The notes beneath the pieces were generated by a model that worked only from the letters and a program-made list of their open reading frames with translations, was not told the DNA's origin and ran no database searches. Shown piece by piece: positions 8,456 through 38,356 of a DNA stretch of 64,000 bases; the first letter of the stretch is position 1, and each line of letters starts with the position of its first letter. Both the position numbers and the translations under genes were made by a program. This DNA is from Halorientalis persicus. GTDB taxonomy: Archaea > Halobacteriota > Halobacteria > Halobacteriales > Haloarculaceae. The stretch spans positions 1 through 64,000 of the forward strand of contig NZ_FOCX01000013.1 in the NCBI RefSeq assembly GCF_900110215.1. The letters are read 5' to 3'.

Positions 8456-8674
8456 TCAGTCTTGTTGGCGGAGTTCGCGAGCGCGCATACGGAGCTGTCC
8501 GAGAATACCTGTCCGTGCCTCGTGAGTGTTCTCGTAGGCCACATACTCTCGAACCGTCGACAGAGAGTCCATACATCGGATTCCCGCCCGGATCAACTCT
8601 GGATTGGTCGCCGACAACAGTTTCTCCGGGGGAAGCTGGTCAAGGATCGCATCCCGATCTTCATCGTTGGTCAC
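8456..8674 (-). CDS. Small helical protein of unknown function, GTG start
   Basis: A protein of 72 residues. The start is GTG at 8674, which overlaps the stop of the upstream gene as GTGA and is preceded by a strong GGAGGTG ribosome-binding site 7 nt away. The longer upstream frame is rejected because it lies inside two other genes. The protein is mostly helical (LDQLPPEKLLSATNPELIRA). It is the last gene of the 9528-8456 cluster. Confidence 0.7.
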   Translation of the reverse strand: MTNDEDRDAILDQLPPEKLLSATNPELIRAGIRCMDSLSTVREYVAYENTHEARTGILGQLRMRARELRQQD

Positions 8675-8892
8675 GCAGATGCACCTCCGTTTTCCCCGAA
8701 GTCGCCGAGTGTGACCTGCTGGCCCTGTTTGAATCGACACTCCGGATAGTGCGCGAGGAGAGTGCTGTCGAACACGCTCCAGAACGCGCACTTGTGCGGT
8801 TCGACGGTCTGCCACCAGCGCGCTCGCCGGAGGGCGTCGTCGACGCGTTGACGCTCGATAATCGGCCACTCGTCGCGTTCGATCAGGACCAT
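8671..8892 (-). CDS. Small protein with C-terminal PIP-like motif
   Basis: A protein of 73 residues. The body is Trp- and Arg-rich (RARWWQTVEPHKCAFWSVF). The C terminus ends QQVTLGDFGENGGASA; QxxLxxF matches the archaeal PCNA-interaction box, except that the second aromatic is Gly. The upstream neighbour has the same TLGDFG at its N terminus. Overlaps: 4 nt with the downstream gene and 10 nt with the upstream one. PCNA binding is inferred from the motif only. Confidence 0.7.
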   Translation of the reverse strand: MVLIERDEWPIIERQRVDDALRRARWWQTVEPHKCAFWSVFDSTLLAHYPECRFKQGQQVTLGDFGENGGASA

Positions 8893-9200
8893 CGAGACTC
8901 CCCCTCCGGGTGGTCGCGCATATACGCGGCAGCCAACTCAAGACCGGCAACAAGCGTGTCTTCGGTGCCGACGATTCGGGAGCCTCGCTTCAGGGTCGTC
9001 CCAGTCTCGCCTCGGTGGAGTGCGAGCGTTGCCGTGTCGTCCGGAATATGCCAGCCGATCCGGTTCTCGGTGTGGACGAGATATTCCCACTCGCCGGCGG
9101 TGGCCTCTTTGGCCCGCTGTTCGATGTCGATCCGAGTGTCGCCGGCTCGCGAGCGCTGACCCCCAGCCCCGAAATCGCCGAGCGTGAAGTTCTCAGACAT
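8883..9200 (-). CDS. Conserved protein with N-terminal TLGDFG motif
   Basis: A protein of 105 residues starting at ATG 9200 (MSENFTLGDFG). Residues 5-11 repeat the TLGDFG motif of the next gene. The rest resembles a small alpha/beta domain (EWEYLVHTENRIGWHIPDD) and ends with a helical AAYMRDHPEG region. No catalytic motif is seen. It lies 10 nt after the stop of 9211-9528. Confidence 0.7.
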   Translation of the reverse strand: MSENFTLGDFGAGGQRSRAGDTRIDIEQRAKEATAGEWEYLVHTENRIGWHIPDDTATLALHRGETGTTLKRGSRIVGTEDTLVAGLELAAAYMRDHPEGESRWS

Positions 9201-9210
9201 TGGTTTCTCC

Positions 9211-9528
9211 TTAGAGGTGGTTCCACTCGTCGAGCATCGCGACGGCCGCCTGGAGGACCGTCGTGACCTGGGCGTCGACGGGCGAATCGGCGTCAACGTC
9301 GACGTCGAGACTCACCCGAAGATCGTGAATGTCGGCCACGCCGAGAGCAGGGACCTGCCGGCAGAGCGTCTTGAGGACGTGGTCACGGATCGTCTGCGGC
9401 GAACTGTCGGCGCTGGCCTGCTCGACGACTGAGCGGTGGATCTGGTGGCTGTCGGGCTGGGCGCCGGTGGCCACGAACTGTTCGAGCGCACGCTGCTGGC
9501 CGCTGTGTGCTTCGATCTGGGAAGACAT
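9211..9528 (-). CDS. Conserved protein of unknown function
   Basis: A protein of 105 residues; the N-terminal half is helical and Gln/His-rich, and the C-terminal half alternates hydrophobic and acidic residues (LRVSLDVDVDADSPV). First gene of a four-gene operon down to 8456. Leader element at 9543-9555. No family recognised. Confidence 0.7.
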   Translation of the reverse strand: MSSQIEAHSGQQRALEQFVATGAQPDSHQIHRSVVEQASADSSPQTIRDHVLKTLCRQVPALGVADIHDLRVSLDVDVDADSPVDAQVTTVLQAAVAMLDEWNHL

Positions 9529-9542
9529 ACTCTCACCCGCCC

Positions 9543-9555
9543 GGAGGACACAAAC
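9543..9555 (-). promoter_or_regulatory. GTTTGT leader element, copy 6
   Basis: GTTTGTGTCCTCC, then GGGCGGGTGAGAG; 14 nt to the start at 9528. Confidence 0.65.
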
Positions 9556-9678: not shown

Positions 9679-10245
9679 CTACGGGCGAGTCCAGGTATCG
9701 ATCTGGGCCTGTCGGTGTTCGTTGTCCAAGTCTTCGCTCGAGACAGAGCCGTCCTGCTCGAACGGTGGGGACACGAGGACGGTCGCGTCGTCGTCGTACT
9801 CGCGGTCGGGCCGGCGGACACAGTCGACGGGTTGGATCGGACTGCACTCGATACAGGAGCAGACCCCTCCTTCGAAGCCGGCGATTTCGACGGTCCAGCC
9901 GATGACGCCCTGGATCCGGTAGGTCCGGTCGTCGCGAGCGCCGTCGGGTTTCTCGCTGGCCCAGCCACGGACGCTGGCGGAGCGACAGCCAACGGCGCCA
10001 CAGATGTCGCAGGTCCGGAGGTAGTCACGATCACCGGGCCGGAACTGGTCTGCCACGACCGACTCGTTGTCGCGCGTCGACAGCGCACAGTCGTCGCAGA
10101 TAATGAAGTGGTACATTCCATCTTCCTTGGCGACGTCGGCAGGCCAGCGGACGTAGGTATGCGCGCTGCCGAAGAACCGAGCGTCGGCGGTCCCGCAGAA
10201 TCGGCAGTGCTCGGCGTCTGCGGTCTTGGATATCCCTCTAGACAT
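9679..10245 (-). CDS. Multi-cysteine zinc-binding protein
   Basis: A protein of 188 residues starting at ATG 10245 (MSRGISKTAD). It has three or more Cys pairs: CRFCG near 13, CDDC near 50, CDIC near 82 and a CSCIEC cluster near 130, enough for two zinc ions. The C-terminal tail is acidic. Its start overlaps the stop of the upstream gene by 8 nt. The inverted repeat at 9586-9647 lies just past its stop codon. Function unknown. Confidence 0.7.
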   Translation of the reverse strand: MSRGISKTADAEHCRFCGTADARFFGSAHTYVRWPADVAKEDGMYHFIICDDCALSTRDNESVVADQFRPGDRDYLRTCDICGAVGCRSASVRGWASEKPDGARDDRTYRIQGVIGWTVEIAGFEGGVCSCIECSPIQPVDCVRRPDREYDDDATVLVSPPFEQDGSVSSEDLDNEHRQAQIDTWTRP

Positions 10246-10633
10246 CGGTGAACTGTCCGAGGTGGCGCTGTTCGCTTGCCGTTCGCGACGATTGGTAGGC
10301 GTCCTCGTCGTGGTGGTCCTTGCGTTCTCGGAGCTGTTTGTGCTCGAAGACCTGCTGGAGCCGCTCAAGAACGAGTGAACTGAACAGTATCGGCGGGGCC
10401 GGTGTCTCGCGCAGCGGCCCGGCGAACGGATCAACCCCCTGGGTGTCGAAGGTATCAAGCAGGCGGACGCGGGCCAGCGCGGCCGCGTAATCGATGTTCT
10501 CACTTGGGAGGACCACGGCCGGTTGGTCGTGGTCCAGTGGGCAGGTCCAGAACGGCTTCTCGTGGCTCGGATCGCACAGTTCCATCGGCGCACTGCATTG
10601 CGGACAGGGTGGTGTGTCGGATCGGTTGGACAT
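10238..10633 (-). CDS. Zinc-ribbon protein of unknown function
   Basis: A protein of 131 residues. The N terminus has a ribbon (CPQC near 10, WTCPLDH near 29). The remainder is helical, with a charged LERLQQVFEHKQLRERK segment. Leader element 14 nt upstream (10648-10660); it heads a two-gene operon with 9679-10245. Confidence 0.7.
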   Translation of the reverse strand: MSNRSDTPPCPQCSAPMELCDPSHEKPFWTCPLDHDQPAVVLPSENIDYAAALARVRLLDTFDTQGVDPFAGPLRETPAPPILFSSLVLERLQQVFEHKQLRERKDHHDEDAYQSSRTASEQRHLGQFTDV

Positions 10634-12137: not shown

Positions 12138-12989
12138 ATGAAGGGGCAACCCGTCGGAGAATACGAAATTGATCCGGAAGATGGCCTCTCCCGAATCGAA
12201 GAACTGGTTCTGGAGCAATGTCCAAGTGCAGTTGTGAAGCAGGTCCACGAGGCAATATTCGTCACCGATGGACCGGTCGACCACCTCGCATGGGTGGCCT
12301 ACGACGACTACGACCGGCACACGTTCTTCTATCTGGATGACGACCCGGTCGAGCAGGAGATTCAGCGGTATCTCGGCTGGACGCTATCACGTGAGGAGAT
12401 GCCCAAACTCGAGGCCTACCTCGCGAGTACCTACGATGTCTACGAGCCACTGGAACTGGTAACGTTTTTCGAGATCCCCGATCCCTACCTTCCGGGATCG
12501 GACCCACGAGTGCTCGTTACCTACTATCATAACACCCACTACGATCAGTTCAACGTCGGTATAAACGCCTATCCACCCCAACGTGAGCCGGAGATTCTGG
12601 AACACGCCGACAAGATCGTTCCAGCACGGGATCTGGAGAAATTCCTCAAAAATATCATGCTAACGCTGGGAAGCGAAGTCGAAGAAGAAGTCGAAAAACA
12701 CGTGCTGGAGGGCGACGTTCGGGAGTTGCTCCAGCGAGACGAAGACTTCCGAGAGCAGACCGTCCGCCCGCTTCCAGACGACATCCACCCCGAATACACC
12801 GGTAACGAGGCCGTACTCTGGCAGAAACCTGCCTCGAAGGTCGCCCACCTCGACAGCGCCGCCGGATTCGTACAGGTGTGGGTTCCCGTCGACGAGGAGA
12901 ACATCGGATTGCTCTCCATCACGAGCGGTGAGTACGACCGCAAAAGCGTGCTTGACGGAGTTCAGGAGACCCTGCTTGCGGAGCTGTAA
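12138..12989 (+). CDS. Conserved protein of unknown function
   Basis: A protein of 283 residues, acidic and soluble, without membrane segments or recognised motif. Tyr- and Asp-rich stretches (DDYDRHTFFYLDDD) come early and a helical, Glu-rich region (LGSEVEEEVEKHVLEGD) in the middle. It is divergent from the integrase, sharing a 106-bp gap. Function unknown; it may belong to the same element. Confidence 0.7.
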   Translation: MKGQPVGEYEIDPEDGLSRIEELVLEQCPSAVVKQVHEAIFVTDGPVDHLAWVAYDDYDRHTFFYLDDDPVEQEIQRYLGWTLSREEMPKLEAYLASTYDVYEPLELVTFFEIPDPYLPGSDPRVLVTYYHNTHYDQFNVGINAYPPQREPEILEHADKIVPARDLEKFLKNIMLTLGSEVEEEVEKHVLEGDVRELLQRDEDFREQTVRPLPDDIHPEYTGNEAVLWQKPASKVAHLDSAAGFVQVWVPVDEENIGLLSITSGEYDRKSVLDGVQETLLAEL

Positions 12990-13045
12990 CATGGAATAAG
13001 AACGACTTCTCAACCCTTTTGTCGGTACGGGAAAACGCTACAGAT

Positions 13046-13120
13046 AGCGGGATGGGATAGCTCGGAGATTCCGGCGGGCTCATAACCCGCAGATCGGTAG
13101 TTCAAATCTACCTCCCGCTA
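13046..13120 (+). tRNA. Initiator tRNA-Met (CAT)
   Basis: A 75-nt cloverleaf with acceptor stem AGCGGGA / TCCCGCT and A as discriminator, anticodon stem CGGGC-TCATAAC-CCG with anticodon CAT, and T-arm GGTAG TTCAAAT CTACC. The AGCGGGATGGGATAG start and GGG/CCC pairs flanking the anticodon loop are initiator features. CCA is not encoded. No intron. Confidence 0.95.
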
Positions 13121-13140
13121 CTTTTCGATGTGAATAACAC

Positions 13141-13168
13141 GGCGAGCACCGCGTCGCGTGTGCTCGCC
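13141..13168 (+). terminator. Hairpin downstream of tRNA-iMet
   Basis: GGCGAGCAC (13141-13149) and GTGCTCGCC (13160-13168) form a perfect 9-bp stem with a 10-nt loop, 20 nt past the tRNA. It could aid 3' processing or termination. Confidence 0.45.
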
Positions 13169-13234
13169 TCCACGAACGTCAAGAGTCGCTATGTAGATTC
13201 GAAGTCAGGGATGGAGCGAAGTGGAACGACCACG

Positions 13235-13255
13235 GTTCAAATCCACCTCCCGCTA
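13235..13255 (+). repeat. Partial duplicate of the tRNA-iMet 3' end
   Basis: GTTCAAATC, C, then ACCTCCCGCTA repeats the last 21 nt of tRNA-iMet (13100-13120) with one mismatch, 135 bp further on. The 5' side of the T-stem is not preserved, so it is not a second tRNA. Its last three bases are the stop codon of the RNase J gene. Such 3'-end copies are left by integrases that use tRNA genes. Confidence 0.7.
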
Positions 13256-14605
13256 TTCTACGAGTTGGATTGTGTTCCCGTTCGAGGTCACATGCAGATC
13301 GCGACCGAGGTCGTATCCCTTGTTCCCGGCCAGTTCGACGTACCCCGAGAATCCGGCCATGTCCTGATGGGCGGGGATGACGTGTTGAGGCTGGAGGGCG
13401 TCCAGCATCTGGTAGTGGCCCTCCTGACGCAGATGGCCCGAGACGTGCACGTCGTCGTAGATACGCGCGCCCTGCATACTCAGCAGTTTCTCTGACTGGT
13501 AGCGCTGGCCCTCATTGGTTGGCTCCGGAATGACTCGCGCCGAGAAGATGACCTTGTCACCGTCGGTCAGCTCGAATGGCGTTTCGCCGCGGCCCATCCG
13601 GGTGAGCATCGCGCGTGGCTCGCCCTGGTGGCCGGTGACGACCGGGAGGAACTTTTCCTTGCCCTCGTTCATGATTCGCTTGAACGCTCTGTCGACGGAC
13701 TTGCGGTGGCCGTACATCCCGAGATCGTCCGGGAAGCCCACGTCGAGCCCGTCGAGGCGGGCGGCAGTGCCTGAGTATTGCTCCATCGATCGCCCCAGCA
13801 GGACTGGTTCGCGGCCGATATCCTGGGCAAACTCCACGATGCTCTTCACGCGAGCGATATGGGAGGAGAACGTGGTAGCGACGATACCGCCGTCCCAGTC
13901 TTCGATGCTTCGCATCACGTCTCGGAGCTGTCGGCGGGCGACGGCCTCACTCGGTGTCCGGCCCTTCTTGTTCGCGTTCGTGCAGTCCTCGATATAACAG
14001 AGGACGCCTCCGTCCTCGCGTCCGATCTCCCGGAACCGCTTCATGTCGATGGGATCGCCGATGACCGGCGTGTGATCCACCCGCTTGTCCAGCCCATAGA
14101 CGATCGACCCTTCGGGCGTGTGGAGGACCGGATTGATCGCGTCGATAATGGAGTGGGTGACGTTGACGAACTCCAGTTCGCAATGTTCGCCGATCTGCAT
14201 CGTCTCGCCGGCTTCCATCGAGATCAGGTCGTTGTTCACGACGTACTCGCTTTCGTCGTGGACCTCCTCGTCGACGAGTTCGCGGGTGAACGGTGTCGCG
14301 ACGATGGGTGCATCGTAGCGGTGGGCCAGCTTCGAGATGGCCCCGATGTGATCCAGGTGGCCGTGGGTCGGTACGATTGCCTGCACCTCGCCGTCGAGTT
14401 CGGACATGACCCGATCGTCGGGGATCGCACCCATGTCGATCAGGTCGAGCGACCGCATCTCCTCGGTTCGGATGTTGTCGTGGATCAGGACCTTCGAGAG
14501 GTTCAGACCCATGTCGAAGACGACGATGTCGTCGCCCGCTCGTACTGCCGTCATCTGCCGGCCGACTTCCTCGTAACCGCCGATTGTCGCAATTTCGATT
14601 TCCAT
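13253..14605 (-). CDS. rnj: Ribonuclease J (archaeal)
   Basis: A protein of 450 residues starting at ATG 14605 ([15 protein letters not shown]), the length of haloarchaeal RNase J. It has the metallo-beta-lactamase zinc motif THGHLDH (about 80-86), later His/Asp ligands, and the beta-CASP insert, with SGHLRQEGH near the C terminus. It acts as a 5'-3' exoribonuclease in mRNA decay. The stop codon lies within the tRNA 3'-end duplicate. Confidence 0.93.
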
Positions 14606-14879
14606 GATGGGAGTCCGATCAGAGCAGTCCCAGAACTCGAAACAAGTGCGCCTGGTATAGGAGGAGAGGGAGTAACCCGATATCGTCGGCACGGTACGGC
14701 GTTCTGCTGAGAGCACCCGTCGACTGTCACTCCTTCTCCGGGGACAGCGCGTCTTTCGGTTACGTATACTCGAACGCCACGACGTAAATAGTCGGTGGAT
14801 CGCTTTTACGGAACGTGGAGATCGGATAGAGGACTGGCCGCCCGAGGGAACCCCGGTCTGTCGGTGGATTTCACACGGA

Positions 14880-14888
14880 TTTTATATC
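14880..14888 (+). promoter_or_regulatory. TATA box of the cation antiporter gene
   Basis: TTTTATATC lies about 25 nt before a probable transcription start near 14910, which places the in-frame GTG at 14922, rather than the TTG at 14895, inside the transcript. The rest of the 14606-14921 gap shows nothing notable. Confidence 0.5.
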
Positions 14889-14921
14889 GTCGGATTGTTC
14901 GTTGAGGCAGGTGTCGGTATC

Positions 14922-16802
14922 GTGAGTTCCGGGGCCAGTTTGATCCCCCTCGTCGTGACCATCTTAGGGCTGGGTGTCACTGCCCAGGTGTTAGCCGATC
15001 GGCTGGAGATTCCGAGCGTCCTCTTTCTCATCCTTGCCGGGATCGCCGTCGGGCCGGAGGGACTCGACATCGTGAGTCTCGAATCCTTCGGCGGTCCCGG
15101 TCCGCTCTCGGGAATCGTCGGACTCTCGGTCGCGATCATCGTCTTCGAAGGTGCGTTCCACCTGAAACTCTCGAAGCTGCGGCAGACGCCGCGAGAGGCG
15201 TTCCGGTTGGTGACCATTGGGGCCGGGATCACGCTCCTCGGGACAGCACTCGCCGTCCGTTTCGCGCTTGACGCGTCCTGGACGCTGTCGTTCCTCGTCG
15301 GGTCGCTGCTCGTGGCGACGGGACCGACCGTGGTCACGCCGATCCTGAACGTCGTTCCAGTCCGTGACCGGGTCGGTGCCGCGCTGGAAACGGAGGGGAT
15401 CGTCAACGACGTGATGGCGGCGATCATGGCGGTCGCCGTCTTCGAGGTTCTCACATCCACCGGGACCGGACTGAATCTGGTGATCGAGTCGTTCCTGACG
15501 CGCCTCGGGATCGGCGTTTTCGTCGGCGGCCTGTCGGCTGGCGTCCTGTGGTATCTCCTCGCACACGTCGACCTGTCTCCGTCGAACGCAGTCCGGAATA
15601 CCCGACTGATCGTTCTCGTAGGCGCAATTTCGACGTACGGAATCGCCGATGCACTCGCCACGGAAGCTGGGATCGCCGCCGTCGCGACGGCCGGCATCCT
15701 CCTTGGAAATACCGATTTACCGTACGAGGACGAGATCGAGGCGTTCAAAGGCGACATAACGCTGATCGTCCTCTCGTTCGTGTTCATCTCCCTCGCGACA
15801 CTGCTGTCGTTCGACGACCTGCTATCTCTCGGAGTTGGTGGGCTGCTCGTGGTTGTGGTCGTCGTGGTGGTTATCCGGCCACTGGCCGTCCTGCTCTCGA
15901 CGTTCGGCGACCGGTTCTCGTTCCGCGAGCGGTTGTTCATGAGCGCCGTCGGTCCCCGGGGGATTATCCCCGCGAGCGTGGCAACGCTGTTCGCGCTGGA
16001 ACTCCGTGGCTCAAATCCCGAGGCGGCGACCATTCTGGTGGGGACCGTCTTTCTCGTCATTCTGACGACCGTCGTGTTTGAGGGTGGATTCGCTCGACAC
16101 ATCGCCCAAGCACTCAACGTCTTACCCATGCGTGTAATCATCGTTGGCGGCGGCCGCGTCGGTCGCGGCCTCGCCGAACGGCTGGAGGATCGCGGCGAAA
16201 ACGTCATCATCGTCGACAACGACCAGCAGCAGGTCGAACAGGCCCGGAACGCGGGCTTCACCGCGCATTTCGGAGACGGAACCGACACGGACGTTCTCAG
16301 GTCGGCCGGCGTCGGCAACGCGAAGATCGTCGCGGCGGCGACCGGCGACGACGACGCGAACCTGCTGGTCGCCCAACTCACCCAATCGAAGTTCGACGTC
16401 GAAACTGTGCTGGCCAGGGTGAACACGCCCGGCAACGCCGAGGCCTTCGAAGAACTCGGTGTCCGGGCCATCTCGGCCGACGACTCCATCGCACAGTCGA
16501 TGGACAACGCCATCGAGCGCCCGGCACTCTCGGAGTGGATGTCGGAACTCGGTCGCGCCGGTGACGTGCAGGAGATCGAGGTCACCGCGGAGACCCTCGT
16601 CGGCACGTCGATCAGCGACCTCGACGGCGAACTGCCGGACGGCGTCCTCGTCGCGCTGGTCAGCCGGGACGGTGAGTCACAGATTCCGGAGCCGGAGTGG
16701 ACACTCCAGCATGGCGACCACCTCACCTTCGTCGGCCGTCGCGACGCCGTCCACCGTGCGCTCGAACAGTGCCATCCGGACCTCCACGCCGATACCGCCT
16801 GA
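14922..16802 (+). CDS. Cation:proton antiporter (CPA1/NhaP type) with TrkA domains
   Basis: About 626 residues. The first 390 or so form about 11-12 membrane segments typical of the Na+(K+)/H+ exchanger family. They are followed by a TrkA-N domain (VIIVGGGRVGRGLA, a Rossmann GxGxxG nucleotide site, near 406) and a C-terminal TrkA-C domain. NAD(H) or nucleotide binding to the soluble part should gate transport, for K+ or Na+ homeostasis in high salt. An upstream TTG at 14895 is formally possible but lies too close to the TATA box. Confidence 0.88.
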   Translation: MSSGASLIPLVVTILGLGVTAQVLADRLEIPSVLFLILAGIAVGPEGLDIVSLESFGGPGPLSGIVGLSVAIIVFEGAFHLKLSKLRQTPREAFRLVTIGAGITLLGTALAVRFALDASWTLSFLVGSLLVATGPTVVTPILNVVPVRDRVGAALETEGIVNDVMAAIMAVAVFEVLTSTGTGLNLVIESFLTRLGIGVFVGGLSAGVLWYLLAHVDLSPSNAVRNTRLIVLVGAISTYGIADALATEAGIAAVATAGILLGNTDLPYEDEIEAFKGDITLIVLSFVFISLATLLSFDDLLSLGVGGLLVVVVVVVVIRPLAVLLSTFGDRFSFRERLFMSAVGPRGIIPASVATLFALELRGSNPEAATILVGTVFLVILTTVVFEGGFARHIAQALNVLPMRVIIVGGGRVGRGLAERLEDRGENVIIVDNDQQQVEQARNAGFTAHFGDGTDTDVLRSAGVGNAKIVAAATGDDDANLLVAQLTQSKFDVETVLARVNTPGNAEAFEELGVRAISADDSIAQSMDNAIERPALSEWMSELGRAGDVQEIEVTAETLVGTSISDLDGELPDGVLVALVSRDGESQIPEPEWTLQHGDHLTFVGRRDAVHRALEQCHPDLHADTA

Positions 16803-16817
16803 GGTCTTGTCTCGGCG

Positions 16818-18056
16818 CTACCACCGCAGGAGTTCGCGTGGGCCGTATCGCATCGCGACGATGCCAGCGAACGTCAGCACACCGGTGAGAGCGGTCACAC
16901 CGCCGACGACGAACACCCAGGCCATTCCCGCTGTGTCCATGAGATAGCCGCCCAGGAGCGGAGCGAGAAGCGCGCCCGGCCGCCAGACGAGGCCGCGAAT
17001 ACCGAAACTGCTCGCGATACCGTTGTCCTTCCCCTCGTCGGCGAAAAGCGCCATGCTCGCGGGTTCCCGGACGGCGTCGGCCACCCCAAGGAGTCCGTTC
17101 AATCCGACCACGACGAAAAACACGGCCGGGACCGTCCCGAGGATCGGAACCGCCGCCGAGAATCCCAGTCGTGTTCCAAACGCCGGTGCCAGGGGGATCG
17201 CCAGTGCGATCAAGCCGTACGCACCACCACCGAGCGTGATGAATAGACCCCGGCCGAACCGGTCGGACCACCTGCCGCTGATCGGCTGACAGAGCATATT
17301 GGTAAACTTCTCCGCGGCGACGGCGACCCCGACGGCGGCCGCGGACAGCGCCAGTCCGCCGCGAGCGACCGACACGCCAACGAAGATCGGGACCCAGTTA
17401 CGCACGAGCGTCACAGAGACGGCGTACTGTGCCCGGAAACTCGTGATGGTGAGGATACGCTCGTTGAGGGCAAGATCGAAGAAGGCGAACCCCTCGACCT
17501 GCGTCTCGTCGGCCTCGACGAACACCCAGACGCCGAGCGTCGCGAGAACGAACAGCGCGACGAGCGCCGCGAAGATGGGGTCGAACCCGAAGGCGTCGTA
17601 GAGTGCGCCGGCACCGAGCGTCCCGACCACGCCGGCGGCCATCCGCCATGCGTTGTACTTCCCGATCTGGTTGGCACGTTCGTCCGGTCCAGCGATGTCG
17701 CCGACCAATGCCAGGCTGATCATCCCGGTTCCGACGATGCTCAGCCCCTGGAGCGTCCGTGCGACGATGAACCCGGCCGGCGTCTCCACGACGGTGAACG
17801 AAGCGTACGCGAGGACGCTCAGGGCCAGCGACACGAGCAGTATCGTGCGCTTGCTGTACCGGTCGGCGGCCCATCCGATCGGCACGATCGCGATGGCCCG
17901 TCCGAGGCTGAGCGCCGTGACGAACAGGCCGACGACGACGCCGGTCGCCCCGAGCTGTTCGATGTAGGTCGGCAGCAGGGTCAACAGCGTGATGAACCCG
18001 AGGCTGCCGACGAACCGGGTCAGGTAGAGCGGGTAGAACTGCCGACGACTCGACAT
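16818..18056 (-). CDS. Major facilitator superfamily transporter
   Basis: A protein of 412 residues with about 12 membrane segments and the MFS signature between segments 2 and 3 (GWAADRYSKRT, about 58-68), repeated in the second half (GRWSDRFGRG). The substrate cannot be told; drug efflux or metabolite export is typical. It is convergent with the antiporter gene, with 15 bp between the stops. Confidence 0.88.
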   Translation of the reverse strand: MSSRRQFYPLYLTRFVGSLGFITLLTLLPTYIEQLGATGVVVGLFVTALSLGRAIAIVPIGWAADRYSKRTILLVSLALSVLAYASFTVVETPAGFIVARTLQGLSIVGTGMISLALVGDIAGPDERANQIGKYNAWRMAAGVVGTLGAGALYDAFGFDPIFAALVALFVLATLGVWVFVEADETQVEGFAFFDLALNERILTITSFRAQYAVSVTLVRNWVPIFVGVSVARGGLALSAAAVGVAVAAEKFTNMLCQPISGRWSDRFGRGLFITLGGGAYGLIALAIPLAPAFGTRLGFSAAVPILGTVPAVFFVVVGLNGLLGVADAVREPASMALFADEGKDNGIASSFGIRGLVWRPGALLAPLLGGYLMDTAGMAWVFVVGGVTALTGVLTFAGIVAMRYGPRELLRW

Positions 18057-18159
18057 ACTCGGTGCCAGTCAGGGCGGACAGGTAAGCCGCTCGGCTCGGG
18101 CTGTCACTGTGGGGTAGTACCACTCACCGACGAACGGGACTCGAAGACAGTGACGGGCC

Positions 18160-18828
18160 TCACTCGCCGGTGAGCTGCCCGAAATCCGCCCGCGTCGATC
18201 GCAGATCCATCTCGAAGCCTCCGTCAGGCTGTTCGGTAATCCAGAGGACGCGGTCGGCGGTCTCCGCGATCGCGGTCACCGTCTCTTCGTCGTGGGCCGT
18301 GTAATCGAGCCCGAAGACCGCTAGACCGTCCGGGGTCCGCAGCCCGGAGATTCGCTCGACGACGTCGCTTACGTTTGCCCTCGATGTCGCGGAGAGCATC
18401 GGGGAGAGTGATCGGACTACCAGGTGTCGATTGCCACCCGCTGGGATCTTTGTGGTCAAGTCGGAGAGTCCGATGACCAGTCGCTCGGTATCTCCCTGTG
18501 ACGGGGTGTACACCGTGGGCACCTCACCGTAAGCCGCCGAAATCGACTGCCCTTCCGACACCATATCGACGACCCCGATTGACGCGCCCTGCGCGGAACC
18601 GGTCAACGACGAAAATGTGTCGCTCGTTTCCGAAACTCCCTGGTTCGTCGTCACGACGATGGCACTGTCGTCCGTCGATCCGAACTGTGCGAGACACCGG
18701 AGTCCGAGCGCGTACTCCGTGGGGTCGAATCCACACAGCAGGACCGTCGCCCCGTCGGTCAATGCTTCCGGGAAGGTTAGGGTCTCTCGCCGGTCGTGTT
18801 CGGAATCGGATTCGGGGACAGAGTCCAT
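18160..18828 (-). CDS. DUF7504-type, degenerate RecA-like protein
   Basis: A protein of 222 residues with the pattern of haloarchaeal HTR-like/DUF7504 proteins: a TVLLCGFDPTEYALGLRCL start resembling a P-loop without the GKT, then VVTTNQG, LVIGLSDLTT and AVFGLDYTAHDEE strands in RecA order. It probably has no ATPase activity and may act in signalling. The zinc-ribbon gene 3 nt upstream is in the same operon. A distant paralogue lies at 56728-57381. Confidence 0.7.
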   Translation of the reverse strand: MDSVPESDSEHDRRETLTFPEALTDGATVLLCGFDPTEYALGLRCLAQFGSTDDSAIVVTTNQGVSETSDTFSSLTGSAQGASIGVVDMVSEGQSISAAYGEVPTVYTPSQGDTERLVIGLSDLTTKIPAGGNRHLVVRSLSPMLSATSRANVSDVVERISGLRTPDGLAVFGLDYTAHDEETVTAIAETADRVLWITEQPDGGFEMDLRSTRADFGQLTGE

Positions 18829-18831
18829 CGA

Positions 18832-19041
18832 TTAGCTCCCCCCTGGAGATGTGTTGGCCGCTGATCGGCCCAGCAATGCGAGTGTTTGCTCTGGATAGAA
18901 ACGCGCGCCACAGCGCGGGCACTCGGCGACGGTCACCGCTTCACGTGCTGCTGACGCAAACGGGAGGTCCTGTACGTCGATCGTCCGTTCGAAAAGGCCT
19001 GCACCGCAGTCCGAGCAGGGGAGGTCTGTTTCATGTGTCAT
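18832..19041 (-). CDS. Small zinc-ribbon protein
   Basis: A protein of 69 residues starting at ATG 19041 (MTHETDLPCSDCG), with CSDCG near 9 and CPRCG near 41, a classical zinc ribbon. Its stop is 3 nt before the start of the DUF7504 gene. Possibly a protein-interaction partner of that product. Confidence 0.75.
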   Translation of the reverse strand: MTHETDLPCSDCGAGLFERTIDVQDLPFASAAREAVTVAECPRCGARFYPEQTLALLGRSAANTSPGGS

Positions 19042-19266
19042 GGCTATTCGAGGGGCGGTCGCGGTAGCGTCCCACGAGGCGGACCGGTGGCCGCCGGAAC
19101 ACACGGACACCCGGCACGCGTTCGATAGCAGTGCCGTCACGGGTCCGCGACGGCGGGCCAAACGGCAAGCGCAAAAAGGACGGGACCGATCGCCCAGTTA
19201 CCTCACAAATCACGGCGCGGAGATAAATACTCTTCGCCCCCGATTCGATTCAGGCGATGTCGACGT

Positions 19267-19273
19267 GTTTTTA
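19267..19273 (+). promoter_or_regulatory. TATA-like box of the DUF2298 gene
   Basis: TTTTTAT lies about 33 nt before the GTG start at 19304, allowing a very short leader. Confidence 0.4.
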
Positions 19274-19303
19274 TCCGGTGACCAGTAGCCACCAACCACA
19301 ACG

Positions 19304-21595: not shown

Positions 21596-21667
21596 CCCCC
21601 CGGTCTACACCGGGGTCGCTCGTGTTCCCACACCACGTTTTTCGGTCTGGCAGACCCAGCTAACCGT

Positions 21668-22715: not shown

Positions 22716-22767
22716 TCGAGCCCGACGCTCCTGAGAATTTTACTGTGGCGACGGCGTACGGAACCAC

Positions 22768-23292: not shown

Positions 23293-23304
23293 CGAAACGC
23301 TCGT

Positions 23305-27635: not shown

Positions 27636-28253
27636 TCAGCCGACAGATGTTAGAATAGATCTAATTCCCTCTAAGTCCAGACGGGGATCTGGCGTACAAA
27701 TCAGCGAATCCACAGGTGTTCCGAACAGACGAATCGACGCAAAGCCGTGCTGGAGGGTCGTCTCCCGGTCGCGTTCGGGACAAGCCAAACCATCGTACCC
27801 ACTGTGGACGCGACGCTTGTCGCCCCGCTCCCGATCAGCCATGTGGATGCTCAGCGACGACCAGCGAACACCAGAGTGGAAGCCGACGACAGGCTCGATG
27901 TCGTCGCACACGGCAGTGATCGCGTCCCAGGCCGCTTCTACCGCTTCGCGGAGCTGTGCATCCGAGGCGGCGACTTCGCTGGGCGCATCCTGGAAATCGG
28001 CGTTCGCGTTGTGCCAGAGATAGACACCCGGCGAGAGTGGTTCGTCGCGAGGGCCGCTCTCGTCGTAGTGGCTTGGATCGAGGACCACGTGGAAGCGTCC
28101 GGATGGAATCGGGGACCCACAGAGGGTCGGTGACGTATCGGGATCGGCCTCGTAGGCGTGGGCGTCGTCGACGCGATACTCTGCGACTGCACGGATGCTG
28201 TCGTTGGATTCTGCCTCGGTCGAGAAGTCAGTTAGGTCGGTCTGTTGGGTCAT
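27636..28253 (-). CDS. Unknown protein with N-terminal PIP-like motif
   Basis: A protein of 205 residues. The start ATG at 28253 overlaps the stop of the upstream gene as ATGA. It begins MTQQTDLTDFSTE, in which QTDLTDF fits QxxLxxF. The middle has YEADPDTSPTLCGSPIPSG and a HYDESGPRDEPLSPG stretch; there is no family I recognise. Coupled to the Mom-like gene. Confidence 0.7.
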   Translation of the reverse strand: MTQQTDLTDFSTEAESNDSIRAVAEYRVDDAHAYEADPDTSPTLCGSPIPSGRFHVVLDPSHYDESGPRDEPLSPGVYLWHNANADFQDAPSEVAASDAQLREAVEAAWDAITAVCDDIEPVVGFHSGVRWSSLSIHMADRERGDKRRVHSGYDGLACPERDRETTLQHGFASIRLFGTPVDSLICTPDPRLDLEGIRSILTSVG

Positions 28254-29023
28254 GCCCATGAGTCGAGCGTGGATTGCTCTTTCACCTCCTCGACGGGACA
28301 GAGAAACCGCCACTTCCAGCGCTGGCGAATGGCTTTGTCCTCGCGGTTGCTGGCCTCGCTCGGTTTGGCGAACCCAGTGCAGGTCCAGCCCTTGTCTCGG
28401 AGGGCTCGGATCATCGCGCCGTCGTAGTCGGCACGCACCCAGGTGAGCAGGAACCGGATCCCCTCTCGTTCAGCGTAGTCAGCGACGAACCGCTCTTGGG
28501 ACCGCGCGAGCGCCGCCGAGGCGAGGTTGGGCATCCGAACACCGAGACAGATTCGGGCGGCCTCGACGAGCGTGTCGCCGGCGACGACCTCATCGTCGAC
28601 GATCTGGTTGGGCTCGATCTCGTCGAGGACCCTCCGTGCGGTCGGGCGTAGCTCGCGAGGGAGATCATCGTCGATAGTCACAGGTTCGGGTGCCAGCTGG
28701 CCGCCAGTCCGGTAGCGAATCCTCTTTTTCGAGATCAGGGGGTATCGGTAGGTGATTGACCCGACTAGATTCCCCTGGAAGCGGACGCCGTGGTGAACGA
28801 GATTCACCGACGGCAACGAATCCATGTAGGAGTGGTGCGCGTCGTAAATTGCGGCTGCTGTCTCGCGCGGGATCGGCTCGACAGTGACGTGGTCGGCGAA
28901 CCGGAGGCCGAGGGGGGCAGTGAAGGGCTCGCCGTCAGCGTGGATTGGACACTCGCAGGTGGGACGATGTCGGTGCTGGAACGATTCTGTCGGGCTCGTG
29001 GTTGTGCGTGTCTGGTGGGTCAT
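28250..29023 (-). CDS. Mom-like GNAT-fold protein with C-terminal PIP box
   Basis: A protein of 257 residues starting at ATG 29023 (MTHQTRTTTSPTE). Mom-like proteins of phage Mu modify adenine using an acyltransferase fold. Here the resembling parts are IYDAHHSYMDSLPSV, GVRFQGNLVGSITYRYP, ARICLGVRMPNLASAALARS and LTWVRADYDGAMIRALRDKGW, in GNAT order. The C terminus ends EEVKEQSTLDSWA, and QSTLDSW is a textbook archaeal PIP box. The leader element is 14 nt upstream. Mom assignment is by resemblance and could be another GNAT-fold enzyme. Confidence 0.6.
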   Translation of the reverse strand: MTHQTRTTTSPTESFQHRHRPTCECPIHADGEPFTAPLGLRFADHVTVEPIPRETAAAIYDAHHSYMDSLPSVNLVHHGVRFQGNLVGSITYRYPLISKKRIRYRTGGQLAPEPVTIDDDLPRELRPTARRVLDEIEPNQIVDDEVVAGDTLVEAARICLGVRMPNLASAALARSQERFVADYAEREGIRFLLTWVRADYDGAMIRALRDKGWTCTGFAKPSEASNREDKAIRQRWKWRFLCPVEEVKEQSTLDSWA

Positions 29024-30872: not shown

Positions 30873-32627
30873 CTAATCCGCTGAATTGACTTCTTCGTAA
30901 TCGGGTACCTCTGCGTTAGGCTCTTCAGAGATACCGCCCCCATAGGTCGAGAGACTCGGGTTCTCACTGGCCAGCACATACTGACACAGGGCCGTCGCGA
31001 GATGGACGGGGACGGCGTTGCCGATCTGCTCGGTGACGGCCTTCTTTGTTGACCCACAGATGTCGTACTCCGCCGGGAAGCCCTGCGCTTGCTTCAACTC
31101 TTGGGGGTTGAGCATTCGGTAGCGGACATCTAGCCCCCACGGCCACGCTTCGGGGACACAGAGGGCGAAGCGATCACGGGTTTCCACAGCCCCGAGTGGC
31201 TCGTCGACGGCGCCGGCGTCGGACTGTCCGTGGTAGTCCACGAGGAACGGGCTTGCCACCCCAGCCGGGCTCTTCGACGCCGGGACAGTCATCAGCGGCC
31301 GCTCGATTGAGCGCGTTCGTGGCTGCTGGCCGCTGCGACCGTTGTAGAGCGGACAGAGGTATGACTGGCCAAGGCCGAACACGCCGCCTTTGGCTGTCGT
31401 GATTGTGGGGAGTGGCTTCTCGATATCGAGCGTTGCCCCACCGTGGGAGTACCGAAGCAGCGTCGGCGAAACGCGGTAGCCGTCCGTGTTTTTCGCGGTG
31501 ACCGTGTGCAGCGGTCGCGCTCCCGGCCGATAGAGTGGATTCGAGTGCAGGCCGCGCTGGAAACCGTTCCGAGGCATCACAAGCGGGCGGGCTTCGACCT
31601 TCTGATGACCGCCTCGGGTCGCGATCGTCGGGACTGGCTCATTGGTCGTCACTGGACTCGCGCCGTCCTGCTGTCGAAGGAGGTAGGAGGCTGAGAGGCC
31701 GACGCCACCGGTAGTGGGACACCGCACGAGGAACGGTTCGTCGACGGCCTGGGCCACAGTCGCCGCCTCCTCTAGAGAGACGACTCGGTTGCTCCGTAGC
31801 TCCCGGACGTCGTCGCGACCGAGAGTGGCCAGCGCGTCGGCCAGCGGCTCGTAGCGGTCGGGACAGTGTTGGCGGATCCCCTCTGCGATCCGCTGCATCG
31901 TCGAGTTCTTCAGCGGCTTCTTCCGGGGGGCATCGATATCCCGGGTAAAGATCGACCCACCGGGATCCGCCCAGTCGATGATCTCGGCTGCGGGCCGATG
32001 ATCGGCGAGGTCGTCGTCGTCCTCTGCGGAGTGGGTCGGCTGGGGGAACGTCGGCTGCTTGGTCCGGCTCGCGACGATGAACAGCCGCTCGCGGCTGGTG
32101 GGATCGCCGTAGTCAGCAGCGTTCAGCGTTCGGTACTCGACGGTGTAGCCGAGGGCCTCGAACATCCCGACCCACTGCTCGAAGATCGACCCGTCCCGTG
32201 TGGGTTGCCCGTCGACGACAGGTCCCCAATCGCGGAACGGTGGGACGTTCTCGAGGAGGACGTTCTCCGGACGGAGTTTCTCGACCCAGTCGAGAACGTG
32301 CCACGCAGAGGCACGCTTCTGCTCGCGAACGGGCTTGCCGCCCCGCGCGCGGCTGAAGTGGACGCACTCGGGACCGCCGACCAGGAGGTCGACAGTGCCC
32401 GGCTCGACGACGTCGGGCGGATGGAGTTCCTCGATCTTGGCGTGGTAGTGCTCGGCCCACGAATGGTTAGTTTCGTGTGTTTCGATCGCTGGCTCCCAGT
32501 GGTTGATCGCGTGGATTTCGACATCATCGCCGGGTGTCTGCCCCAGCTGCTCACAAGCGAGAGCAACGCCAGTCGAAAATCCCCCGGCACCACAGAACAG
32601 GTCGACAACGGTCGTTGCGCTAGCCAT
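30873..32627 (-). CDS. dcm: C5 cytosine-specific DNA methyltransferase
   Basis: A protein of 584 residues starting at ATG 32627 (MASATTVVDLFCG). Motif I DLFCGAGGFSTG (8-19), motif IV with the catalytic Cys in GGPECVHFS (PEC in place of the usual PPCQ), motif VI LLENVPPF, motif VIII SRERLF and motif X QIGNAVP are all present. A long target-recognition part (about 230-520) contains repeated T-x-x-x-x-G-G/K-x elements (TIATRGGHQ, TVTAKNTDG, TITTAKGGV). It methylates cytosine at an unknown site. No restriction endonuclease is seen nearby, so it looks like an orphan methylase. Its start overlaps the stop of the small gene upstream by 8 nt. Confidence 0.9.
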   Translation of the reverse strand: MASATTVVDLFCGAGGFSTGVALACEQLGQTPGDDVEIHAINHWEPAIETHETNHSWAEHYHAKIEELHPPDVVEPGTVDLLVGGPECVHFSRARGGKPVREQKRASAWHVLDWVEKLRPENVLLENVPPFRDWGPVVDGQPTRDGSIFEQWVGMFEALGYTVEYRTLNAADYGDPTSRERLFIVASRTKQPTFPQPTHSAEDDDDLADHRPAAEIIDWADPGGSIFTRDIDAPRKKPLKNSTMQRIAEGIRQHCPDRYEPLADALATLGRDDVRELRSNRVVSLEEAATVAQAVDEPFLVRCPTTGGVGLSASYLLRQQDGASPVTTNEPVPTIATRGGHQKVEARPLVMPRNGFQRGLHSNPLYRPGARPLHTVTAKNTDGYRVSPTLLRYSHGGATLDIEKPLPTITTAKGGVFGLGQSYLCPLYNGRSGQQPRTRSIERPLMTVPASKSPAGVASPFLVDYHGQSDAGAVDEPLGAVETRDRFALCVPEAWPWGLDVRYRMLNPQELKQAQGFPAEYDICGSTKKAVTEQIGNAVPVHLATALCQYVLASENPSLSTYGGGISEEPNAEVPDYEEVNSAD

Positions 32628-32860: not shown

Positions 32861-33010
32861 CTAAGCCCCTCCTCCGAAATCCGCAAGGGTCGCGTTCGGG
32901 GAATTCTCGCAGTACGGGCGCGGACACTCCCCTTCGTCGTAGACTGCTGCGTCGAACTGCTCAAGGCAGCCGCGGCAGCACCACCACTCGTCGGCATCGG
33001 CGACGTTCAC
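32861..33010 (-). CDS. Micro-protein with zinc ribbon and C-terminal TLADFG
   Basis: A gene of 49 codons. The start is GTG at 33010, overlapping the upstream stop as GTGA. A WWCCRGC cluster (9-15) and a CPRPYC cluster (29-34) can bind zinc. The C terminus ends NATLADFGGGA, matching the TLGDFG ends of the genes at 8671 and 8883. Coupled to 33007-33336. Confidence 0.65.
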   Translation of the reverse strand: MNVADADEWWCCRGCLEQFDAAVYDEGECPRPYCENSPNATLADFGGGA

Positions 33011-33393: not shown

Positions 33394-34233
33394 CTATCTT
33401 TGACTCACTACCTGGCTCACGGAGAGCGCCCCCAGCTGTTGTTGCTCGGTCGCGATGTACTGGTCGGGGACCTCTTCAAAGTCGTCGAGGCCAGCCTGCT
33501 CAGTCGCTTCGACGTCGACACTGGGGCGATCGAGCTGCCAATGCGCTTGGTCACGCTCGTAGCCGGCATCGAACGCGGAAAGTTCACGGGTTCGGGCCGG
33601 CGCTGCGACGGCTTCCAGTTCCTCAGCGCGATCGCCCAACCAACCCATCTGCTCGAACATTCCATCGAAGTCCTGCTCCTGGAACGGGAAGCGCACGGAC
33701 GCCTTCGGCGGGAGAGCCGTGTGTGTCTCCCGCCCAGTTTCCAGCGCTGTCGGTCGACCCTCGAAGATCCCCCGCTCACGGAGGGCGTCAACATAGTCGC
33801 TCCCGGCGAGGACGACCAACTCCCGGCAGGGGGACTTCGCCTGATCGGCACAGAACGGTCGGCGAAGCCAGTCGGCCAGCCCAGAGTGGACCCTTCGGGC
33901 CCAGCTGTCCAGTTTCGTCGTGACGGGATCGCCCGAGGGCAGTTCGAATCGCGGCTCGCCCTCGATTGGCACGTCACGAAGGTCGTCGATCGTCGTGTCG
34001 TAGGGCTCGATCTCCATTCGGGCCGGCAAAATCCCGTGTTCGGCCGAGAGAACAGCCCAGGCGTTCGTCCGCCTGTCGGCTGTTCTGGCCCACTGGACGG
34101 CGGCCTCGGCGTAGCGACGTTTGAGCACAAAGTATGACGATGTATACAAGTCGCGAGCCTCGACGGGCTCGTCGGTTTTTGCGTCGCCACAGCCCACGAG
34201 GACGAACCGTCCTCTCGTTCGCTCAGTTTCCAT
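33394..34233 (-). CDS. DUF6884 domain protein
   Basis: A protein of 279 residues starting at ATG 34233 (METERTRGRFVLVGC). The N-terminal DUF6884 pattern is clear: VLVGCGDAKTDEPVEARDLY, then YAEAAVQWARTAD, WAVLSAEHGILP and EPYDTTIDDL. DUF6884 is common in phages and mobile elements; it is related by sequence pattern to DUF4433/YaaA-like nucleotide-associated domains, but its activity is unknown. The C-terminal third has a FPFQEQDFDGMFEQMG segment and a Gln-rich tail. Overlaps the upstream gene by 11 nt. Confidence 0.8.
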   Translation of the reverse strand: METERTRGRFVLVGCGDAKTDEPVEARDLYTSSYFVLKRRYAEAAVQWARTADRRTNAWAVLSAEHGILPARMEIEPYDTTIDDLRDVPIEGEPRFELPSGDPVTTKLDSWARRVHSGLADWLRRPFCADQAKSPCRELVVLAGSDYVDALRERGIFEGRPTALETGRETHTALPPKASVRFPFQEQDFDGMFEQMGWLGDRAEELEAVAAPARTRELSAFDAGYERDQAHWQLDRPSVDVEATEQAGLDDFEEVPDQYIATEQQQLGALSVSQVVSQR

Positions 34234-36331: not shown

Positions 36332-36394
36332 CGGATGGTTCGGCTAAAGGGTGAAAGCAAGATCGTGGCGGTGTTCTCACGCGCTCCCCCGAGG

Positions 36395-37255
36395 CTAATC
36401 GTCGGTCCGAGGAGCCAGAAGGAACTGGACTGTCCCATCAGCGCCGGGAAGCGGAGCGCGAACAACAAGTGGGATCGTGTTTCCGATCTGGAGGTGCCGA
36501 GTCGGCCCACTCGGGAGCGCGCGGTTGATCTCGCTGAGATGATCGAGACTAAATTTCGAAGCCGCTTCCGCCGGCTCGAACGCGACCAGATCTCCCGGTT
36601 CACGTCTGTAGGTGACGCTATCTGTGTCGCCACGGGCGTCGAACCGGAGTTCTGGGTTATCCTCGTCGACGACGACATAGAGATGGTCGCTCACCTTCTT
36701 GCCGGCGGTAACAGCTAGATCGAGATCGTCTTCATCGAGCTGGCACACCGCTGGGTACTCCAGATCCGGGTGGCTTGGGGCCTGACGAATTGATCTCGGG
36801 TCGATCAGCGAGAGCGTACACGTCATCTCGTCCGAGCTAACCTGGAGTGTGTTCGTCTGGGGGTCCAGCACGAGTCGGACTAGCTCCTCGTCGACGACTG
36901 ACAGCACTTCGTCCAACCGGTTGACGTTCACGCCGAGAACGCCAGTCGTGCTCTCGAACTGCGTGAACGACTGGGCATCGACCTGCAGGTCGACCATTGC
37001 GACCTGTGACGGATCCGACGCCTGAATTTGGATGCCGCTGTCGTCGACGGCGATTCGACACTCGTCGACGATTGGATCGACCGCGCTCACCACCGTTTGG
37101 AGTGTGCTGACCGTCGACGTGAGCTTGAAAACGGCAGGCGGAGAGTCGCGGGCAGGAGAATCGTCATCTTGTTCAGATTCGGCGGCGGACTGAGCCTGCG
37201 TGTCCTGTTCGGGTGTCGGTTCGACTTCGTCTGCGGAGTCTGCTTCGGTCGACAT
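36395..37255 (-). CDS. PCNA paralogue (sliding clamp) with acidic N-terminal extension
   Basis: A protein of 286 residues starting at ATG 37255 (MSTEADSADEVEPTPEQ). The first 41 or so are acidic and disordered. The rest aligns by eye with haloarchaeal PCNA throughout: VDECRIAVDDSGIQIQASDP, the MVDLQVDA strand, GVLGVNVNRLDEVL, the LSLIDPRSIRQAPSHPDL interdomain segment and the VQFLLAPR C-terminal strand. The chromosomal clamp is near 247 residues without such an extension. It may form its own ring or mixed rings with host PCNA. Leader element at 37275-37287. Several block proteins carry PIP-like termini, so a clamp-based partnership is possible. Confidence 0.9.
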   Translation of the reverse strand: MSTEADSADEVEPTPEQDTQAQSAAESEQDDDSPARDSPPAVFKLTSTVSTLQTVVSAVDPIVDECRIAVDDSGIQIQASDPSQVAMVDLQVDAQSFTQFESTTGVLGVNVNRLDEVLSVVDEELVRLVLDPQTNTLQVSSDEMTCTLSLIDPRSIRQAPSHPDLEYPAVCQLDEDDLDLAVTAGKKVSDHLYVVVDEDNPELRFDARGDTDSVTYRREPGDLVAFEPAEAASKFSLDHLSEINRALPSGPTRHLQIGNTIPLVVRAPLPGADGTVQFLLAPRTDD

Positions 37256-37274
37256 TGATGGCCTCCACTCGACT

Positions 37275-37287
37275 GGGGTGAACAAAC
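37275..37287 (-). promoter_or_regulatory. GTTTGT leader element, copy 14
   Basis: GTTTGTTCACCCC, AGTC, then GAGTGGAGG; 19 nt to the start at 37255 of the PCNA paralogue. Confidence 0.7.
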
Positions 37288-37306
37288 TGCCCCTGTATCC
37301 TCTCGC

Positions 37307-38356
37307 TTAGGGGAGAACGGTCACAAGCCGGGCGGACCAGTAATTGAGTCGGAAACTGCTGTAGCCTTCAGAGAGCCAGTAGGTCCTGACAGTCGCGATA
37401 CGCTCTAGCGAATCGGCCGGATCCTCCCAGGCAAACTCGTAGCCAGCAATAATTCGATCGTCGACGACGTCGCCCACCTCGTGTTCGGGCCCGTCCCAAT
37501 TGATCGCGACCGTGTGGTCGCCGTTGGGCGGCTTGATCCGACCTCGATCCGCGACTTCGACACTGGATGGCGTCTTTGCCAGCGTGCCCAGCGTCGCGAG
37601 GTCCGCCGCCTCCATGCTGAACGACTCGCCGTCTGTCGAGTGGACACTGTGTTTCACGTCGCCGCGAACGGTGTGGTACTTGGCTCGTTCGATCTCGATA
37701 TCCTTCGCTTCCTCGAGCAGACGCACGAAGTGGGCGAGGCCGTGGAGGATCTGGTCGTTTTCCTCTTCGACGCTAAACCGCGTGTCGCCGGCCTGGATCT
37801 CGCTACTGCGTCGACCCTGCCCTGCATCTGGACGATCGACGGGCATACAGCTGCACAGCAGGGAACCTTCTGGCCCGGTCAGGATCCACGGGAACGGGCC
37901 ACAGGGAATAACGGTGTAGTCCGTCGCTGAGTACCTGCCGCCGCCAGTGAGCACCCGCAGGGCTTTCTCCAGGGCGGTCCCATCGATACCGTAGCCGTAT
38001 GCCTCGCAACAGCCGTCGACGTGCGTCACGAGCGGATCGATCCCGTCGAAGCCACCGTAGGTGTCCGGGATCCCCCAGATCTCGCCGCTGCCGTATTCCT
38101 CGACGTACTCGGCGACGTCACCGTCGACGATCCAGCGGGTTTGCTGAGGACTGACGTGGCCAGCACTGGTCTGGATCGGCGAGGCTGGTCGCCGCGTCTG
38201 AAGGCCCCACTCAGTGTCAGGAGACTCCCAGTCCGGAAACTCGGATCGGTCGGGAGCCGCAGTCAGGCGGGCACACCGGGCGACGCTAGTCGGGGCCGGA
38301 TCGAGGTCTTCTTCTGTGCTTCCGAACGCGCTCAGAGACGTGCGAGAGTCGGTCAT
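37307..38356 (-). CDS. Unknown protein with N-terminal PIP-like motif
   Basis: A protein of 349 residues starting at ATG 38356 (MTDSRTSLSAFGSTEE). TSLSAFG near the N terminus resembles the TLGDFG group. The body is mixed alpha/beta, with a CCEAYGYGIDG segment, CSCMPVDRP, a helical ILHGLAHFVRLLEEA region and a strand-rich end. No family recognised. Leader element 33 nt upstream; next to the PCNA paralogue. Confidence 0.7.
   Translation of the reverse strand: MTDSRTSLSAFGSTEEDLDPAPTSVARCARLTAAPDRSEFPDWESPDTEWGLQTRRPASPIQTSAGHVSPQQTRWIVDGDVAEYVEEYGSGEIWGIPDTYGGFDGIDPLVTHVDGCCEAYGYGIDGTALEKALRVLTGGGRYSATDYTVIPCGPFPWILTGPEGSLLCSCMPVDRPDAGQGRRSSEIQAGDTRFSVEEENDQILHGLAHFVRLLEEAKDIEIERAKYHTVRGDVKHSVHSTDGESFSMEAADLATLGTLAKTPSSVEVADRGRIKPPNGDHTVAINWDGPEHEVGDVVDDRIIAGYEFAWEDPADSLERIATVRTYWLSEGYSSFRLNYWSARLVTVLP

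Follow-up and report, generated by a model that had tools for sequence, protein, structure and literature searches.

Terminal PIP-box-like motifs point to clamp docking by unrelated accessory proteins of a haloarchaeal conjugative-plasmid-type array

Introduction

Polymerases, repair enzymes and some transposases are known to carry peptides that dock on the replication sliding clamp. We analyzed a 64,000-nucleotide stretch of Halorientalis persicus DNA (contig NZ_FOCX01000013.1, positions 1 to 64,000; hereafter the window), which holds the accessory-gene array of a haloarchaeal conjugative-plasmid-type element related to pHH126, split by other genes. Several of its proteins, with unrelated bodies, carry terminal motifs resembling the PCNA-interacting-peptide (PIP) box, and one of its genes encodes a PCNA paralogue. 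PIP boxes themselves, the β-clamp motifs of bacteria and the extra PCNAs of haloarchaea are already known. In the structural work on Haloferax PCNA, PIP boxes are described at the extreme termini of proteins, those of polymerases have the second aromatic residue swapped and the pocket is shallower (PMC2737543). The β-clamp consensus is Q-phi-x-[L/M][F/L] (PMC11139829). The presence of an extra PCNA in haloarchaeal genomes, seen here too, was noted in 2012 with its function left open; the passages of that paper on the duplicates draw no link to PIP-bearing neighbors such as those described here (PMC3404096).

A published precedent is the IS1634 family, a mobile-element protein whose clamp motif also differs between domains, being of β-clamp type in bacteria and of PIP type in euryarchaea (PMC4549789); however, that case concerns a transposase in a single family and ours an accessory array. 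Fomenkov et al. showed other plasmid methyltransferases to be active in association with replication upon entry, and suggested the sliding clamp as a possible mediator (PMC7736820). Leading regions of conjugative plasmids, with their anti-defense genes, resemble the haloarchaeal array in that methyltransferase-like and ArdC-like genes run in one direction on plasmids bearing a type IV secretion system, but no sliding clamp is mentioned there, and the likeness of the haloarchaeal array to a leading region is only an analogy (PMC11541004). In the open-licence literature we found no earlier description of a plasmid array in which many unrelated proteins bear clamp tags, nor of a domain-matched switch of clamp motif in a plasmid methylase-like family.

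Results

The original prediction held that six accessory proteins of the window carry a PIP-box-like motif close to one of their ends. Translation recovered all six at the genes named:

8671-8892, minus strand: 73-aa protein, QVTLGDFG at 8695-8718, 7 residues before the C-terminal end
8883-9200, minus strand: 105-aa protein, NFTLGDFG at 9168-9191, N-terminal (residues 4-11)
27636-28259, minus strand: 207-aa protein, QTDLTDFS at 28221-28244, N-terminal (residues 6-13)
28250-29023, minus strand: Mom-like protein, QSTLDSWA at 28253-28276, its final 8 residues
32861-33010, minus strand: small cysteine-rich open reading frame (ORF) of 49 aa (49-51 aa), NATLADFG at 32873-32896, 3 residues from the C-terminal end
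37307-38356, minus strand: 349-aa protein beside the PCNA paralogue, RTSLSAFG at 38321-38344, N-terminal (residues 5-12)

To measure enrichment we defined a strict motif, Q..[ILM]..[FWY] within 18 residues of either protein end, and used as background 397 proteins encoded on 545 kb sampled from the genome's other contigs, which we took to be chromosomal. The strict terminal motif was found in 7 of the 32 array proteins against 4 of the 397 chromosomal ones (Fisher P = 1.8e-6), one of the latter being PolD DP2 (QSGIGDFM; identity by Pfam), and in none of the 210 internal 18-residue windows of the array proteins. When the terminal segments were shuffled, a mean of 0.18 motifs was expected and the maximum in 5000 trials was 3. 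The seven array matches include QRALEQF at a terminus of the protein at 9211, which is not conserved as such in orthologues and was not counted as part of the set; the DUF6884 protein described below is additional to them. An all-versus-all BLAST of the motif proteins matched just 12 residues over the motif, showing their bodies to be unrelated and ruling out common ancestry of the bodies as its source.

A codon-based gene map of the window exposed several more terminal or near-terminal motifs that the original prediction had overlooked:

699-1937, minus strand: Orc1/Cdc6 initiator (NCBIfam TIGR02928, 1e-131), C-terminal ETTLSEYT at 705-725, a weak candidate
4878-5693, minus strand: N6_Mtase-like (methylase-like) protein (Pfam N6_Mtase, 8e-12), QQSLTVF at 4896-4916, 5 residues from the C-terminal end
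9679-10116, minus strand: 145-aa protein, QAQIDTW at 9691-9711, 3 residues before the end (...QAQIDTWTRP)
10238-10585, minus strand: 115-aa protein, QRHLGQF at 10250-10270, 3 residues before the end (...QRHLGQFTDV)
30873-32627, minus strand: C5 cytosine DNA methyltransferase (Pfam DNA_methylase, 1.5e-38), degenerate NPSLSTY at 30942-30962 near the C-terminal end
33394-34233, minus strand: DUF6884 protein (Pfam DUF6884, 2e-19), QAGLDDF at 33478-33498, 27 residues from the C-terminal end

The methylase-like protein ends in EQQSLTVFQTEDI, which contains EQQSLTVF. Most motifs lie 1-8 residues from the protein end, and that of DUF6884 27 residues from it. Searches of NCBIfam and PHROGs returned no function for most motif proteins.

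Conservation was followed in orthologues from many elements, conjugative-type plasmids of Haloarcula among them. Four families show full (100%) identity at positions 1, 4 and 7 of the motif: methylase-like (Q, L, F in 12 sequences), Mom-like (Q, L, W in 15, QSTLDSW being a classical PIP box), 9679 (Q, I, W in 11, with relatives reading QVEIGGW) and DUF6884 (Q, L, F in 15). In the methylase-like family identity is just 35% over the 18 residues preceding the motif, with variation in synonymous codons. In all seven families examined, the position-7 aromatic never varies and position 4 is either L or I. The N-terminal L/I..F of the 37307 protein is present in 15 orthologues, with F11 invariant; TLGDFG is retained in 16 of 16 sequences of the 8883 family, and a Natronosalvus homologue with a body identity of just 25% still carries the motif in MTNDDQLMLSKFGAG (QLMLSKFGAG). 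The 8671 family shows a TTLDDF-type or QVSLADF motif in 13 sequences, and a copy of the 27636 protein on another contig of the genome (C67), 91% identical, reads QTDLTAFS. The motif of the C5 methyltransferase is weak and has no Gln; its homologues show TPSLSTF, DPTLFDF or DPTLQAF near the C-terminal end. No orthologue was found for the 10238-10585 protein, nor, among the fetched related loci, for the small ORF at 32861.

The motif is thus mostly kept in orthologues whose bodies have diverged. Loss, which would speak against the prediction, was seen in a decayed second copy in Halorientalis marina, where the 8883 gene is split, the methylase-like gene truncated and the motif gone; in addition, the Orc1/Cdc6 motif has a sole other carrier, the 97%-identical H. 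marina orthologue. Elsewhere loss was largely not seen. We consider it almost certain that the terminal motifs are real and selected.

The form of the motifs was then compared with the PIP boxes of the host. The second aromatic or bulky residue is missing, with Gly, Ser, Thr, Ala or Gln in its place, and Gln-less variants occur in 37307, in 8883 and in the Haloarcula members of the 8671 family. The prediction had described the motifs other than QSTLDSW as QxxLxxF with the second aromatic replaced, and that form is indeed what is seen; however, it is no caveat, since host PolB (C-terminal QTGLGNFM), PolD (QSGIGDFM), FEN1 (QTGLDRWT) and RNase HII (QSALSEF) do without a second aromatic too. Two host PolB-family paralogues end in DASLSAFGR and EPELTDFQ, so that forms with one aromatic, and even without Gln, are normal in this host. 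The window motifs share with the archaeal PIP boxes of PolB, PolD DP2, FEN1 and RNase HII the extreme-terminal place and the pattern Q-x-x-[LIM]-x-x-[FW] with no second aromatic, but they sit on plasmid accessory proteins with unrelated bodies and some are Gln-less. The genome holds three PolB-family paralogues with degenerate terminal motifs (loci L207, L208, L209).

Next to the 37307 gene lies the predicted clamp:

36395-37255, minus strand: PCNA paralogue (Pfam PCNA_N, 6e-11) with an acidic, disordered N-terminal extension

The acidic extension, part of the original prediction, is there as a D/E-rich disordered stretch of ~40 residues. In the AlphaFold2 model (mean predicted local distance difference test score, pLDDT, 84.5) residues 1-34 are disordered, and the best Protein Data Bank match found by Foldseek is Haloferax PCNA (3IFV; template-modelling score 0.97, root-mean-square deviation 1.3). 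The model, together with the pocket columns, displays a two-domain clamp fold, a connector loop and a C-terminal pocket. The equivalent of Met46 of Haloferax PCNA is invariant in 19 of 19 sequences, the prolines of the interdomain connector loop and the C-terminal AP are kept, and the equivalent of Met239 is mostly Leu, Val or Ile. By structure prediction, the plasmid paralogue is a genuine PCNA. The model of the adjacent 37307 protein was poor (pLDDT 56) and was not used.

The genome has three PCNA genes. The third (contig C67, locus L058, 15921-17084) has a long, very acidic N-terminal extension and stands ~30 kb away from another, incomplete copy of the window array (locus L057). A Halococcus dombrowskii plasmid (locus L120, 27188-29201) encodes two PCNA paralogues side by side.

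More than 1000 bacterial plasmids, many of them conjugative, encode homologues of the methylase-like protein, and at a first look three of four ended in QLALF or QLRLF. We therefore collected 80 homologues from genome contigs (79 with complete ends, 66 distinct tails) and scored as a β-clamp motif any Q[LIMVF].[LM]F in the final 18 residues. It was present in 66 of the 79 homologues and in 3 of 1237 other ORFs of the same loci, absent from 1344 internal windows, and carried by 53 of the 66 distinct tails; the commonest forms were QLSLF (19), QLALF (11), QLTLF (11), QLRLF (10) and QMTLF (6), besides others. A member on a Phaeobacter plasmid has the motif as well. The QLSLL of the Klebsiella and E. 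coli members was rejected as a clamp motif because it sits in the conserved core and not in the tail. The bacterial QLxLF (PMC11139829) thus occupies the same C-terminal place as the haloarchaeal PIP box, but it is another peptide for another clamp and just the enzyme body is homologous. With a PIP box in the haloarchaeal homologues and a β-clamp motif in the bacterial ones, the body carries a clamp-docking peptide appropriate to its domain of life, and the bacterial homologues presumably use the host clamp.

The SAM motif I is DPACGSG-like in the haloarchaeal and several bacterial members, and its pattern was unmatched in some others. M.EcoGIX and M.BceJIII (PMC7736820) are also plasmid-borne and tied to entry and replication, but they possess a catalytic DPPY that the methylase-like family is without, and on such evidence they are not the same family; an identification with M.EcoGIX was not adopted for this reason.

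A tblastn search located relatives of the array on Haloarcula plasmids and in H. marina. Plasmid pHH126 of Haloarcula hispanica N601 carries type IV secretion system genes as well as Orc1/Cdc6. Its array, most of which runs in one direction, comprises the 37307 orthologue, PCNA, an ArdC-like protein, DUF6884, Mom-like, small genes and the methylase-like gene. The gene order of the window is that of the pHH126 array, interrupted by an inserted block (12138-25215) whose genes look chromosomal: RNase J-like, Na+/H+ antiporter, major facilitator superfamily, DUF2298, macro domain and FttA-like beta-CASP. The contig of the window also encodes a VirB4/TraG-like ATPase.

Discussion

The original prediction that the element recruits its factors to a sliding clamp is strongly supported, albeit indirectly, by the terminal enrichment, the conservation in orthologues, the host-like form of the motifs and the switch to a β-clamp motif in bacteria. 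Judged from sequence, the motifs are very probably functional clamp-docking tags, and it is highly likely that they bind a sliding clamp. As a whole, the reading we favor, with good if not full confidence, is that array proteins dock on PCNA through terminal PIP boxes that tether them on plasmid DNA. At least seven unrelated array families would dock on the PCNA ring through a terminal or near-terminal PIP box, most likely on the ring of the host and possibly on that of the plasmid paralogue too. Docking would hold the Mom-like, DUF6884, methylase-like and small proteins, and perhaps the C5 methyltransferase, on plasmid DNA, and tethering during double-strand conversion or replication would let modification or protection keep pace with synthesis; in relatives an ArdC-like factor belongs to the same array. 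It is the company of the C5 methyltransferase, ArdC-like, Mom-like and DUF6884 proteins that suggests protection or modification of plasmid DNA, and the array members are probably in part anti-restriction proteins. That replication-coupled protection or modification is the purpose we hold to be an even call.

Which clamp is used bears on whether, as suggested, the element prefers its own. If the PIP boxes were tuned to the plasmid PCNA paralogue, the latter would mark plasmid DNA and recruit only the factors of the element. The paralogue adjoins a motif protein in the window and in orthologues, its pocket is kept yet altered at the Met239 position, and a Natronosalvus plasmid with motif proteins has a PCNA too. 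However, the Mom-like protein keeps a perfect PIP box on pNG600 (REQTSLGRWTP) and on Haloplanus pMBLA003601 (EREQTSLGRWTP), both of which were searched whole and have no PCNA gene, so the PIP box is independent of a clamp on the same plasmid. The window motifs are, moreover, indistinguishable from host PIP boxes, and the bacterial homologues carry a β-clamp motif, though plasmid-borne clamps were not sought there. The preference is therefore unsupported and a private clamp seems unlikely to us; host PCNA is the parsimonious, and rather likely, main partner, with the plasmid's own paralogue possibly another. A different use of host PCNA would be its occupation by the small motif proteins, which would slow or redirect host replication in the way of p21-type inhibitors. 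Several of these proteins are tiny (49, 73, 105 and 115 aa) with little beyond the motif, but the larger ones resemble DNA-modifying or DNA-processing proteins, which favors tethering, and we find blocking quite improbable.

The motif might also be some other short linear motif (a degron, or a dock for RPA or an ATPase) that merely resembles a PIP box, as the Gln-less N-terminal forms TLGDFG and LTLGTFG could suggest. This we regard as very unlikely, given that Gln-less termini of this form are also present on host PolB-family paralogues, the key positions are those of a PIP box and the bacterial homologues have a β-clamp motif at the same place. Chance, or a compositional bias of acidic haloarchaeal termini, had to be considered because the motif is short and was picked after reading the sequence; a chromosomal rate of 1%, the shuffling result and the conservation across genera leave it a negligible probability.

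Some observations weigh against docking as a tether for DNA-modifying proteins. The catalytic motif IV [DNS]PP[FYW] is missing from all 93 methylase-like sequences (0 of 13 haloarchaeal, 0 of 80 bacterial), which makes their catalysis doubtful, and the family, widely annotated as a methyltransferase on plasmids, is possibly not one. The Mom-like assignment falls below the Pfam cut-off (E = 0.0014; 18.8 bits against 27.1). Members from Klebsiella, E. coli, Serratia, Citrobacter, Acinetobacter and two phages have no C-terminal clamp motif, only weak motifs (QAEFAAF, PTLQAF) are seen in the Halococcus element that has two PCNA paralogues, and to call the array a leading region would be to argue by analogy.

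In archaea and bacteria alike, plasmids seem to attach accessory proteins to the replication clamp, and plasmids in general may use replication-coupled tethering. A broader proposal, which we offer tentatively and think somewhat doubtful, is that archaeal and bacterial conjugative plasmids independently tag establishment proteins with the local clamp peptide, so that DNA would be modified or shielded at the replisome during complementary-strand synthesis, and that the haloarchaeal plasmid adds its own PCNA as a dedicated platform. The tags offer a handle on uncharacterized plasmid genes, as clamp clients could be predicted by their tails, and they place the haloarchaeal PCNA duplicates of open function in a context that can be tested.

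Other observations

An SMC/Rad50-like ATPase on a Haloplanus plasmid (locus L122, 2777-4900) ends in GQADLTQYEG and is, by its tail, a further candidate clamp client. Another contig of the host genome (C41), on which the PolB-family paralogue of locus L208 lies, encodes an Orc1 that is 97% identical to that of pHH126 and ends in NAQIDDFFEGN; it also holds a Mom-like gene whose product ends in EQTSLARWFG. The host genome contains three FttA-type genes. A different C-terminal peptide, PRPDGKLPD, is conserved in a diverging family (7044-7868 in the window; loci L006, L121, L122 and L224), and a MarR-like protein of locus L122 (28247-28660) ends in the similar APRPDGV. Finally, two small genes of the window on opposite strands, 26088-26264 and 26586-26777, start near-identically (MGFGSYDESEQQNQ).

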